Below are positions 13,479 through 17,638 of a DNA stretch of 46,046 nt, piece by piece. The translations under genes were made by a program, and so were the position numbers. Origin of the DNA: Pseudobdellovibrionaceae bacterium (GTDB lineage: Bacteria > Bdellovibrionota > Bdellovibrionia > Bdellovibrionales > Bdellovibrionaceae); contig JAKFYD010000038.1 in the NCBI GenBank assembly GCA_021731025.1, forward strand, positions 1 through 46,046, read 5' to 3'. Numbering within the stretch: the first letter of the stretch is position 1; each line of letters opens with the position of its first letter. Under the pieces are notes generated by a model. The model did not search any database, was not told the origin of the DNA, and saw nothing but the letters and a program-made list of their open reading frames with translations.

Positions 13479-14744
13479 TTATTTGATTCCACCCGGTCCA
13501 GAATTTTTCTTCTTTGGTCTAACATCAAGATCTGCAATGCAACTTGCTCGTTGTCCTCCGGCCATGGAACAACATTTTTCTGCTTTCCCGCCCCAGAATT
13601 CATTTAAATATGTATGCCGAACTGAATCTCTGATCGAACTTCCTTCCCACTCAGAAGCAGCATCAAAACGATTTGCAGTAACACTACGAGATCCTCTCCA
13701 TGCAGGTAACTTATTGTCCCAGGTTACCTTTGTTAAGTCTTTCCATTCTGGATCTTTTGAATATTCTAGCTCAGATGAAATTTTATCGCTGCCTTGATTA
13801 TATGTAACTTTTAGAGTTTTTGTATTTTCGGACTGTTTTCTTTCAAACTGAACAGCGGTACTAAAATTTTTAGATGAAAGAGTATAATTAAGGTCTCCGG
13901 AAGGAGAGCATTTAATATCCCTTACAGAAACATCTTTAAACCACAAATCATTTTGGGCTTGAGTCACGAGTTCGAAATTTAAAGAAACATTTTTGAAATG
14001 ACTACAAAGATATTTGTTACTTTTCAATAATTCTGACTGTTTTTCAGAGGGTAACTTTAAAAATTCTATTTCTTTACTTCCTATCGCTGGAACTGTACTG
14101 CATTTCCCATTTTCTTCCATTGTTGAAACATAGGCCTCTACTTCTTTTGCCAAGCCAGCACATTTTGAAATGGTATCACCTTTAGTTTGGAGTAAGTCAG
14201 TAACACCGAAAAACGCAGTTAACAGTCCTGTTCCACGTAAGACAGCAGCTGAACTTCCTAATTTTTGAATCAAGCGACCACTAAAAGCATCATCAGGTGG
14301 GCCATATTTAGTAGCAGGAGTTATCCATTTAAATTCTACACCACGTTCATTAATACCGCTAGATAGGCCAGGGGATACCTTCCATCCAGATTTTTCTTCT
14401 GCGAAGAGTTTTGCATAAGTTGCACCCAGTTTAGCATAATCAATCTTAATTGCTTTAACCTGATTCATTTTATTTGCCTTGATCTCTGCTTGGCCGGCCA
14501 AAGCCATTGCCGTTCCTGCCGAAGTTACAGCGCAACCTCCTAATTTTGTAATGCTCCAACATTCCAGACTTGAAAAGCTTCGAGAAATTTTATCTTGGAT
14601 TTCTTGGGTAAGAGACTGATCACACTGAACTTCAGGAATATCTAACTTCGGGTTCAAATTAGAAGCATGAGAATATGTTATTAGCTGAATTATTAGCAAT
14701 ACTATCTGCATAAGTGCTCCTTGGATATTCTTAGATAATTTCAT
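13479..14744 (-). CDS. Exported protein of unknown function
   Basis: A 421-aa protein with a signal peptide (LMQIVLLIIQLITYSHA). Not recognised. Features: a Cys-containing N-terminal region, an Ala/Gly-rich hydrophobic stretch (GGCAVTSAGTAMALAGQAEIKA, about residues 70-90), a second one (AVLRGTGLLTAFFGVTDLL), then a polar, probably beta-rich C-terminal half with a CC pair (AEKCCSMAGGQRASC) and a Lys/Pro/Gly tail. It is visibly AT-richer than the flanking oxidase genes and has no clear Shine-Dalgarno. It lies in the palindrome-bounded island. Probably periplasmic or secreted. Confidence 0.6.
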   Translation of the reverse strand: MKLSKNIQGALMQIVLLIIQLITYSHASNLNPKLDIPEVQCDQSLTQEIQDKISRSFSSLECWSITKLGGCAVTSAGTAMALAGQAEIKANKMNQVKAIKIDYAKLGATYAKLFAEEKSGWKVSPGLSSGINERGVEFKWITPATKYGPPDDAFSGRLIQKLGSSAAVLRGTGLLTAFFGVTDLLQTKGDTISKCAGLAKEVEAYVSTMEENGKCSTVPAIGSKEIEFLKLPSEKQSELLKSNKYLCSHFKNVSLNFELVTQAQNDLWFKDVSVRDIKCSPSGDLNYTLSSKNFSTAVQFERKQSENTKTLKVTYNQGSDKISSELEYSKDPEWKDLTKVTWDNKLPAWRGSRSVTANRFDAASEWEGSSIRDSVRHTYLNEFWGGKAEKCCSMAGGQRASCIADLDVRPKKKNSGPGGIK

Positions 14745-14901
14745 AGTTTAATTAAGAAAGCCATTTTTAGAAATCCAACAGGACATAAGTTCCATAACAT
14801 GTGCCTTTAAGGGACCTTTAACCGATTAAAGAGCAAGACTTAAGGTAAGATAAGAATTTTTAAGACACTTCAAAACAAATCTAAAATCTCGGACCAGAAA
14901 A

Positions 14902-14945
14902 TTTACTAGGCAGACCTAGTAAATTTGCTAGGTGGACCTAGTAAA
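14902..14945. promoter_or_regulatory. Tandem double palindrome, probable operator
   Basis: Two directly adjacent 22-base palindromes. Box 1: TTTACTAGG (14902-14910), 4 bases, CCTAGTAAA (14915-14923), perfect 9-bp arms. Box 2: TTTGCTAGG (14924-14932), 4 bases, CCTAGTAAA (14937-14945), one mismatch. The boxes differ at three positions. Box 2 covers the expected -35 region of the promoter at 14952, so a dimeric protein binding here would control the ATPase gene, perhaps the gene's own product. Confidence 0.75.
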
Positions 14946-14951
14946 ATAGGC

Positions 14952-14957
14952 TATAAT
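14952..14957 (+). promoter_or_regulatory. -10 box (TATAAT) giving a leaderless start
   Basis: An exact TATAAT seven bases before the ATG at 14964 (six bases intervene). Transcription would begin at or next to the A of ATG. No Shine-Dalgarno precedes that ATG, which agrees with a leaderless mRNA. Confidence 0.6.
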
Positions 14958-14963
14958 TACAAT

Positions 14964-16115
14964 ATGAAAAAGGATACGGTTCCGGACTTTATTTTAGATC
15001 TTCAGCGACAAATTAGCTTATCAACAAATTTGATCAATGTCGTGCTTGGCCCAAGGCAAGTTGGTAAGACAACAGGTATTTTGAATTATTTGAACTCCTA
15101 TAAAGGTGAAAGCATTTATCTGTCGGCTGATGACGAAATTTCGCCGACCACGAATTGGATCCACGAGCAATGGCAGAAGGCTGTCTTGAAATCGTCTCAA
15201 TGCCTGCTCGTTATTGATGAAATTCAAAAAATACCATTGTGGTCGACCGCGATCAAAAGCTTGTGGGAACAGCAGAAGAAAAATAAAAAGACTGAAATCA
15301 AATTGATTCTTCTAGGCTCAAGCTCATTGCAAATTCAAACAGGCTTAAGCGAAAGTTTAACGGGACGATTTCGCTTAATTCAGGCTTACCATTGGGGGCT
15401 TAAAGAATCGCGCGAGTTAAAAAAATTCAATCTGGATGAGTTTCTTTGTTACGGCGGATATCCCGGAAGTTATGCTCTGCTTAAGCATCAGCGGGATTGG
15501 GAAAATTATATCAGACATTCAATCATAGAAACAGTAATTGGCAAGGACATACTGAACCTAGCCAAGGTAACCAAGCCGGCTCTTTTTCGCCAGGCTTTTA
15601 GTTTACTCATGTCTTATCCTGCGCAGGAAATCAGTTACACTAAATTGCTGGGTCAACTTCAAGATTCCGGTAACACGGATCTGGTAAAATATTACATTGA
15701 ACTGTATGAAGGTGCATTTTTAATTAAAGCTATTCAAAAATATTCTCCCAAAACCTTGGTAACGAGATCTTCTTCGCCTAAACTTATTCCTCTGTGCGGG
15801 GCTTTAATCACCAGGAGTATCTTCAAAGATAAAACTGGATATGGCCGTGCACTGGAAGCAGCTGTGGGAGCGGCTTTAATCAAGGCAGATTTTGAACCTT
15901 TTTACTGGAGGGATGGCAACGCAGAAGTGGATTATGTTTTTGAATTCGACGGAGATCTATTTGCATTTGAAGTTAAATCTGGTGTTGCAAAAAGTTCTAA
16001 AGGACTGAACGAGTTCACAAAAAGATTTAAGCGCGCAAAACCTATCTTTATTTCTGAAAGCAATGTTGAGTCATTTTTACTGGATCCTAAAAAGTTTATA
16101 GAGAAGTTGAAGTGA
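14964..16115 (+). CDS. AAA ATPase with DUF4143 C-terminus
   Basis: A 383-aa protein of the AAA_14/DUF4143 family. Walker A GPRQVGKT (29-36), Walker B CLLVIDEIQK (81-90), sensor LLGSSS (117-122) and LTGRF (133-137) are seen, then a helical linker and a C-terminal PD-(D/E)xK-like core with Glu299, Asp324 (AEVDYVFE) and Glu337-x-Lys339 (FEVKSG). Family biology is poorly known; members are common in accessory DNA. It lies in the island behind a double palindrome and lacks a Shine-Dalgarno. TTG 14925 would extend the frame through the operator and is unlikely. Confidence 0.85.
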   Translation: MKKDTVPDFILDLQRQISLSTNLINVVLGPRQVGKTTGILNYLNSYKGESIYLSADDEISPTTNWIHEQWQKAVLKSSQCLLVIDEIQKIPLWSTAIKSLWEQQKKNKKTEIKLILLGSSSLQIQTGLSESLTGRFRLIQAYHWGLKESRELKKFNLDEFLCYGGYPGSYALLKHQRDWENYIRHSIIETVIGKDILNLAKVTKPALFRQAFSLLMSYPAQEISYTKLLGQLQDSGNTDLVKYYIELYEGAFLIKAIQKYSPKTLVTRSSSPKLIPLCGALITRSIFKDKTGYGRALEAAVGAALIKADFEPFYWRDGNAEVDYVFEFDGDLFAFEVKSGVAKSSKGLNEFTKRFKRAKPIFISESNVESFLLDPKKFIEKLK

Positions 16116-16534: not shown

Positions 16535-17638
16535 TTAAAATTTTGCCATAGCTTTTAAAGCTTCAATCGATGACATCAATTCATTCTTTGCAGCGGATAT
16601 TTCTTTGACTAAATTCTCTTTAGAATGATCAAGAAGATTGTTGAAGAACACATTCTCTGAAGAAAGACGGTTGGCTCTTTCCACTTCAATTTCTTTCATG
16701 AGAGCATCAGCAGATGTATTAGCGATAGGGAGCTGGAATTCTAACTCAGAAAGTTTGGATTTATTTCCAAAGAAGGCCTTATAATCATCATCGGCCTCGC
16801 AATATCCTTTAGACGCAAGACCGATCCTAGTAATTGCACGACTGTAAACCCAATCTTCTTTTTCGGTTAGAGTAACTCTTTTTCCCCGACCTAGTTCAGA
16901 CGAGATGAGAGACAGCTTTGAACAAATGGATGCATCAGTCGCTTTGCTTGAAGTTATAGCGTTCAAGATCTTATCAAGTTCTCTTACCGATGAATTTGCA
17001 ATGTCTGCAGTGCCGGGTATATTGTAAATGGCATAAACAGAATCATAATCTCCACTACTGGTTCCGGCTATTCTCTGTTGCATTTCTACTGCGTCAGTTT
17101 CATTTCCATCAAGTAAGTGAATTAACTCGTGGAAAAAGAGACCTTTCATGACCCTTCGTAAATGATTGATGTCATCCGAACTTATATTGTATTTTCCAAT
17201 CTCTGACAGTGAAAAGCAGATGTTATTGGGCTTGGTTGCGCTAGCGGCTTTATGATGAACAACCCCTCCGTTGGTGATGTCACAAGGTCGATCTTTAAGT
17301 AAAGTCAGATTGAAGGAATCAATAATATTTCGAGTTTTATCTGGATTTACTAATAATTTTTTTCTTGCTATCATGAACGGATCGGAATCGCAGTTGCGAG
17401 GGTCACAACTATACCAATTTCGAAGGCTGTTTAATTCAGCACGTGCCATTGGCCTTATTTCTGAAATAATTTTTTCAACTTCAGGGAGGTAGGGTTTGTG
17501 ATGAGGTTTTGCCGGAATAGGATTTCCACCGCCGGTACCAACTCCACCGTCAATGCCTGCCCAACATTGAGACAGTGAGCTCAACAAGGTCAGTGCGCTT
17601 ATACTCAAAACTCTTTTAATTTGTTTCCGTGTTTCCAT
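16535..17638 (-). CDS. Exported putative zinc metallopeptidase (HELIH motif)
   Basis: A 367-aa protein with a signal peptide (VLSISALTLLSSLSQCWAG) and then GGVGTGGGN, a Gly-rich start to the mature protein. The motif FFHELIHLLDG gives HExxH at residues 170-174, with Glu180 or Glu185 (NETDAVE) as a candidate third ligand, as in gluzincin-like peptidases. Several cysteines (CDPRNCDSD, RPCDITNGG) could form disulfides. The C-terminal 60 residues are helical. Good AAAGGA Shine-Dalgarno before ATG 17638. It is divergent from the TIGR02147 gene, a likely regulator. Family not identified; peptidase activity is inferred from the motif only. Confidence 0.65.
   Translation of the reverse strand: METRKQIKRVLSISALTLLSSLSQCWAGIDGGVGTGGGNPIPAKPHHKPYLPEVEKIISEIRPMARAELNSLRNWYSCDPRNCDSDPFMIARKKLLVNPDKTRNIIDSFNLTLLKDRPCDITNGGVVHHKAASATKPNNICFSLSEIGKYNISSDDINHLRRVMKGLFFHELIHLLDGNETDAVEMQQRIAGTSSGDYDSVYAIYNIPGTADIANSSVRELDKILNAITSSKATDASICSKLSLISSELGRGKRVTLTEKEDWVYSRAITRIGLASKGYCEADDDYKAFFGNKSKLSELEFQLPIANTSADALMKEIEVERANRLSSENVFFNNLLDHSKENLVKEISAAKNELMSSIEALKAMAKF

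Follow-up and report, generated by a model that had tools for sequence, protein, structure and literature searches.

Tandem palindromes overlying a promoter and bound by a product of the same locus are typical of toxin-antitoxin and restriction-modification controller operators, and autoregulatory operators as such are already known. In those autorepressing systems a separate antitoxin or C protein is the binder, whereas at the locus described here a single effector-like protein carries the winged helix (wHTH). RptR and BrxR are reported (PMC12255303, PMC9122589) as repressors acting on inverted repeats at phage-defence promoters; they are dedicated repressor genes, whereas the operator described here is presumed to be read by the ATPase-nuclease itself. 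A 2026 survey (PMC12988326) places PDC-S01, an ATPase fused to PD-(D/E)XK, as the fourth most common defence across prokaryotes, with 29,494 bacterial and 9,986 archaeal cases, and gives experimental validation as pending for most PDCs. Like the gene studied here, PDC-S01 (COG1373/PF13635), a PADLOC defence candidate, is a single gene encoding an ATPase plus PD-(D/E)XK; a cognate operator, a leaderless promoter and a recognition code are not described in that survey. The open-access literature searched gave no function or regulation for PDC-S01, and no description was found there of a solitary AAA-nuclease, from a very common family of defence candidates, that recognises by a decipherable code an operator of its own specific to the subfamily. 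In the presence of plasmid DNA, RNA of the Thermus DUF4143 gene TT_P0211 is 6.6-fold higher, an increase seen only with Argonaute (PMC4406477) and therefore a lead rather than support.

The window, meaning the whole stretch of 46,046 nucleotides that was analysed, encodes one such protein, with the following features.

14964..16115, plus strand: AAA_14/DUF4143 ATPase gene (PADLOC PDC-S01), 383 aa, with a putative leaderless start
15030..15404, plus strand: AAA_14 ATPase domain, residues 23-147, with Walker A GPRQVGKTT and Walker B LLVIDE
15576..15791, plus strand: winged helix, residues ~205-276, in AlphaFold model mad093fba9d40 (mean pLDDT 91)
15855..15977, plus strand: PD-(D/E)XK-type residues E298, D323, E336 and K338, from alignment A1

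Pfam AAA_14 and DUF4143 both scored over the cut-off, and the protein (P0001) matched PADLOC PDLC04791 (PDC-S01) at 8.7e-125. The AlphaFold model is consistent with an AAA domain followed by a winged helix and then a C-terminal domain holding the PD-(D/E)XK-type residues. Within the modelled winged helix, helices span residues 205-216, 225-231 and 238-250, the last being the recognition helix, and the wing spans 258-272. In the alignment the catalytic residues of both the ATPase, Walker motifs included, and the PD-(D/E)XK domain are intact: E298, D323 and K338 are invariant and E336 is kept in at least 90% of the sequences, the PD-(D/E)XK assignment being taken from this alignment and not from fold matches. 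A search of solved structures by sequence gave a marginal AAA match only. The best PDB fold match of the model was SSO1545 (2fna; E 3e-7, TM 0.49-0.53), followed by matches that included RuvB/RFC-type AAA proteins and Orc1/Cdc6 proteins such as 2v1u and 2qby (E ~1e-6 to 3e-5, TM about 0.3). SSO1545 and Orc1/Cdc6 share with the window protein the order of an AAA module and then a wHTH, and Orc1/Cdc6 proteins bind origin DNA; identity to the window protein is only 11-15%, however, and the window gene has no origin context.

The region upstream of the gene contains the following elements.

14891..14901, strand not assigned: possible degenerate fifth half-site, the reverse complement of which is TTTTCTGGTCC; a weak, 3-mismatch extension from 14893
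14902..14923, strand not assigned: operator palindrome 1, TTTACTAGGCAGACCTAGTAAA, two inverted 11-bp half-sites in an architecture also found upstream of homologues
14924..14945, strand not assigned: operator palindrome 2, TTTGCTAGGTGGACCTAGTAAA, assigned from its sequence and from homologues
14952..14957, plus strand: -10 element TATAAT, at -12..-7 counting the A of the ATG as +1, coinciding with the family-wide -10 peak

Palindrome 1 is spelled TTTACTAGG-CAGA-CCTAGTAAA and directly abuts palindrome 2, TTTGCTAGG-TGGA-CCTAGTAAA. Positions 14902-14945 are better described as four 11-bp half-sites, alternately inverted and spaced one per helical turn; 14891-14901 matches the consensus half-site at 7/11 positions when compared by eye. 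All three copies of the half-site CCTAGTAAA in the window lie at the array, against 0.18 copies expected, and shuffles gave an expectation of zero matches for the 31-bp array pattern. When the full dyad was searched in the 3.49-Mb genome with at most 3 mismatches, the two array positions were recovered along with two stray 3-mismatch matches, fewer than a reversed-pattern control yields. The dyad is thus private to the ATPase gene within its genome, and a dispersed repeat or a global regulon was rejected on this ground. Downstream of the array an exact TATAAT is followed by six bases and then by the ATG at 14964, which is the homologous start, relatives beginning at the same place. No Shine-Dalgarno sequence was found at -13..-5 of this ATG, an interval chosen since the operator AGG confounds a wider one, and no good -35 hexamer was found 16-18 bp upstream of the TATAAT. 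The initial annotation had reported two abutting 22-base palindromes before an exact TATAAT and no Shine-Dalgarno sequence, all of which is confirmed in the sequence.

Homologues were gathered from the same order and phylum, from plasmids and, by an alignment scan, from many other phyla; a single-protein scan of genome contigs found no close relatives, but the alignment scan did recover homologues. Alternately inverted 11-bp half-sites lie at the start codon of AAA_14/DUF4143 homologues, both inside the phylum and in some 15 or more others, the start codons of homologues being predicted rather than mapped. Among 72 homologues the best tandem-palindrome period was 22 bp in 49, and the mean tandem score was 14.7/20 upstream, compared with 12.1 both downstream and in shuffles and 11.7 far upstream. 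In a second, independent collection of 77 loci, covering about 15 or more phyla, a score of at least 16/20 was reached in 11/77 upstream regions, 1/77 downstream regions and 0/72 far-upstream regions. Moreover, the motif TGAGT[AT]2-6[AG]CTCA was present in 34/77 of these upstream regions and in 0/688 control windows, and the ACTCA version was found across the same range of phyla. In some homologues, L050, L061, L090 and L095 among them, the array is absent or hard to make out.

Although the architecture is shared, the letters are not. Versions in homologues include TTTACTAGGTT, TTTGATAGGTT, AATTATAGGTT, TTTAGTAGGTT and TTTACTCAATA, among others, and they vary between subfamilies and between paralogues of one genome, with paralogues carrying different operators in genomes G059, G058, G044 and G032. 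Sites were private to their own gene in nine genomes. Agreement is higher between the two palindromes within a locus than between palindromes of different loci (0.49 vs 0.17), and compensatory changes are seen within each palindrome. The double operator proposed in the initial annotation recurs, as a tandem dyad just upstream of the ATG in most homologues, each with its own letters, and the proposal thereby withstood the refuting outcome which that annotation had named, a lack of the dyad at related genes. The TTTRCTAGG dyad, which the same annotation had expected upstream of related genes, is only one of several subfamily versions, and because the letters are subfamily-specific, a literal search for it would miss most of the family.

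At 25 class-1 loci in which the array abuts the ATG, a -35-like TTGAnn was centred in palindrome 1 in 23/25 and in palindrome 2 in 0/25, a -10-like TAnnnT was centred in palindrome 2 in 21/25 and in palindrome 1 in 0/25, and the two elements were 17 bp apart. None of the 25 had a Shine-Dalgarno sequence. More broadly, a -35/-10 pair with the -10 ending 6-7 nt before the ATG was found at 29/145 loci, where 0.08 were expected. The -10 thus lies where a start at the ATG would place it, without a Shine-Dalgarno sequence, and a leaderless 5′ end at the ATG is predicted. Across the family, the palindromic site appears to overlap the core of the gene's own promoter. At six loci (L030, L047, L049, L064, L075 and L092) the array lies further from the ATG and is followed by a Shine-Dalgarno sequence. 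In Elusimicrobia-type loci the leaderless spacing is kept and the palindrome precedes the -35; five of them, from Elusimicrobia and related candidate phyla (L164, L172, L214, L222 and L231), read as near-consensus TTGACA/C-17-TAnnnT-6-ATG and have a single palindrome immediately before the -35. The locus in the window is off register: it shares the family's -10 spacing, its -35 is poor, and its array, at -62..-19, is shifted about 18 bp further upstream than in the main group, covering the -35 region and not the -10 and ending 18 bp before the ATG. A leaderless promoter made of two operator palindromes is apparently conserved with this solitary gene across many phyla.

If the protein recognises its own operator, the letters of the site might be expected to follow the residues of the winged helix, and they do. 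Among ~310 protein columns, the top three covarying with half-site position 5 were D239, T238 and T226, and the top columns for position 4 were T226, R268 and T238; half-site position 9 gave no wHTH covariation signal. All of these residues fall in HTH helices or the wing of the model, 226 at the start of HTH helix 2, 238/239 at the start of the recognition helix and 268 in the wing, which are places expected to face DNA. In leave-one-out prediction, the four residues gave the correct position 4 in 33/38 loci and position 5 in 26/32, compared with 24/38 and 15/32 when the nearest phylogenetic neighbour was the predictor, the columns having been picked on the same data that scored them, so that this is not a clean hold-out. 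Where code and neighbour disagreed, the code was right 12 times against 3 at position 4 and 12 against 1 at position 5. The only independent checks of the code are a random-set control, in which 0/500 sets of four columns equalled 226/238/239/268, and three loci outside the phylum, where 3/3 GNTD proteins had CTAG operators.

The pairings that make up the code are [A/G]CTAG with GNTD, [A/G]ATAG with GNVE, T[A/G]TAG mostly with GNID plus N226, AGTAG with N or I at 226, and ACTCA with GNT(T/V)T. Of the GNT(T/V)T proteins outside the phylum whose array could be classified, nearly all are paired with CTCA operators. The code has exceptions: V238 occurs with ACTCA in L168 and L199, and TTDK/TTEK occurs with GATAG in L056-L059. 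Joint switches of operator and residues are scattered over the tree built from the non-wHTH part of the protein. Because the letters of the operator change together with winged-helix residues of the encoded protein, self-binding is favoured, and these comparisons give strong support to a probable recognition by the protein of its own operator. With the cognate site readable beside each gene, the code would offer a first biochemical handle on PDC-S01, one of the commonest suspected anti-virus genes in bacteria: it would define a ligand and a promoter to test, predict mutants with switched specificity and allow the inducing signal to be followed with a reporter.

With the array, its conservation across the family, its register with the -35 and -10 elements and its covariation with the wHTH established by sequence comparison, we infer that the protein binds the operator directly, does so as dimers, and represses rather than activates. 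The ATPase gene very probably controls itself, and we consider it likely that the palindromes are the gene's own operator, through which the protein represses its own leaderless promoter. In such a mechanism, dimers of the AAA ATPase with its winged helix and PD-(D/E)XK nuclease-like domain would bind the 11-bp half-sites and line up along the same face of the DNA, with residues 238-239 of the recognition helix, 226 of the preceding HTH helix and 268 of the wing reading half-site positions 4-5. Protein bound over the core promoter would exclude RNA polymerase, and the gene would thereby repress itself. Were the protein depleted or changed in state, for example by ATP turnover or engagement of foreign DNA, which are speculative as inducing signals, the promoter would open and yield an mRNA that is leaderless, its 5′ end at the ATG or adjacent to it. 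Antiviral action of the ATPase is likewise speculative. It is a doubtful extension that the operator-bound protein is a sensor of invaders, combining repressor, sensor and nuclease in one polypeptide. A single DNA-reading surface would then keep the protein on its private operator, and foreign DNA or lost operator contact would release the protein, open the promoter and free the effector. Of the functional proposals in the initial annotation, the leaderless start is upheld by the recurring -10-to-ATG geometry, and the ATPase as likely binder gains from the covariation; for tight repression by the bound ATPase, self-recognition is similarly supported and the repressive sign stays presumptive.

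The promoter of the window itself makes activation the main rival. Positive or mixed autoregulation would have the protein recruit RNA polymerase from the same operator to a promoter without a -35, and a change of nucleotide state might act as the switch. Such regulation is possible in the window because the array ends 18 bp before the ATG and leaves a perfect TATAAT outside it, with no -35 hexamer, and the palindrome just upstream of a consensus -35 in L164, L172, L214 and L222 would also suit an activator. In the main group, however, the palindromes cover the -35 and -10 themselves, which is the geometry of a repressor, and we regard activation as unlikely.

Since a DNA-binding protein is needed to read a palindromic operator and the majority of such proteins work in trans, another host regulator might bind the palindromes with the ATPase merely one of its target genes; a TIGR02147/HTH gene lies 1.6 kb downstream. 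The privacy of the sites in nine genomes, the different sites of same-genome paralogues, the covariation with the ATPase's own wHTH and the lack of a conserved regulator nearby all speak against such a regulator, which we consider very improbable. Flanking ORFs of 150 loci included no conserved partner apart from occasional further DUF4143 genes, in keeping with a single-gene locus. Regulation by a neighbouring gene was rejected on the same lack of a conserved neighbour. The only recurrent neighbour was another, distant DUF4143 gene or fragment (L023, L043, L062, L070, L168, L212 and others).

The occurrence of the gene is patchy, with horizontal spread, and its nuclease-type residues are conserved, as might be expected if the arrays marked the ends or the targets of a mobile element of one gene and were recognised for its movement, regulation being secondary. 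At L062 and L092, which belong to different phyla, a second cognate pair of 22-bp palindromes follows the stop codon, at 20 and 42 nt, so that the gene is flanked on both sides. A clear downstream array was not found in 53/55 testable loci, however, and the promoter register speaks for regulation; a mobile-element role is accordingly a slim prospect. The genes flanking the ATPase gene, at 13479-14744 and 16535-17638 and both on the minus strand, lack Pfam matches, and orthologues of them are almost absent from the family, which points to a variable stretch next to the cytochrome oxidase/cyoE genes. Because these flanking genes have no orthologues in place in relatives, an empty-site comparison could not define an insertion boundary.

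Scarcely credible are RNA hairpins in the 5′ leader (an attenuator or start-codon masking), for which 9-bp stems with 4-nt loops directly before the ATG and the compensatory changes could be cited, since the palindromes contain promoter hexamers placed at -35 and -10 relative to the ATG, which would leave the array untranscribed, agreement between the two palindromes of a locus is unneeded for pairing, and no terminator was found.

Palindromes of another kind accompany more distant members of the family. The genome of the window holds three further DUF4143 genes, on contigs C33, C39 and C15 of G000 (L148-L150 and L052), and for the gene on C33 the palindrome at the start differs and is centred on TTGAC. 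Distant DUF4143 paralogues at eight loci (L124, L127, L131, L134, L135, L137, L143 and L145) have GGAGTTGACTCC or TGCAGTTGACTGCA-like cores, some repeated at longer spacing, with the -35 TTGAC again central. TTGAC-centred palindromes (GGAGTTGACTCC and the like) with at least 7/9 pairs were present in 9/35 of the distant paralogues, compared with 2.6% of control TTGA sites.
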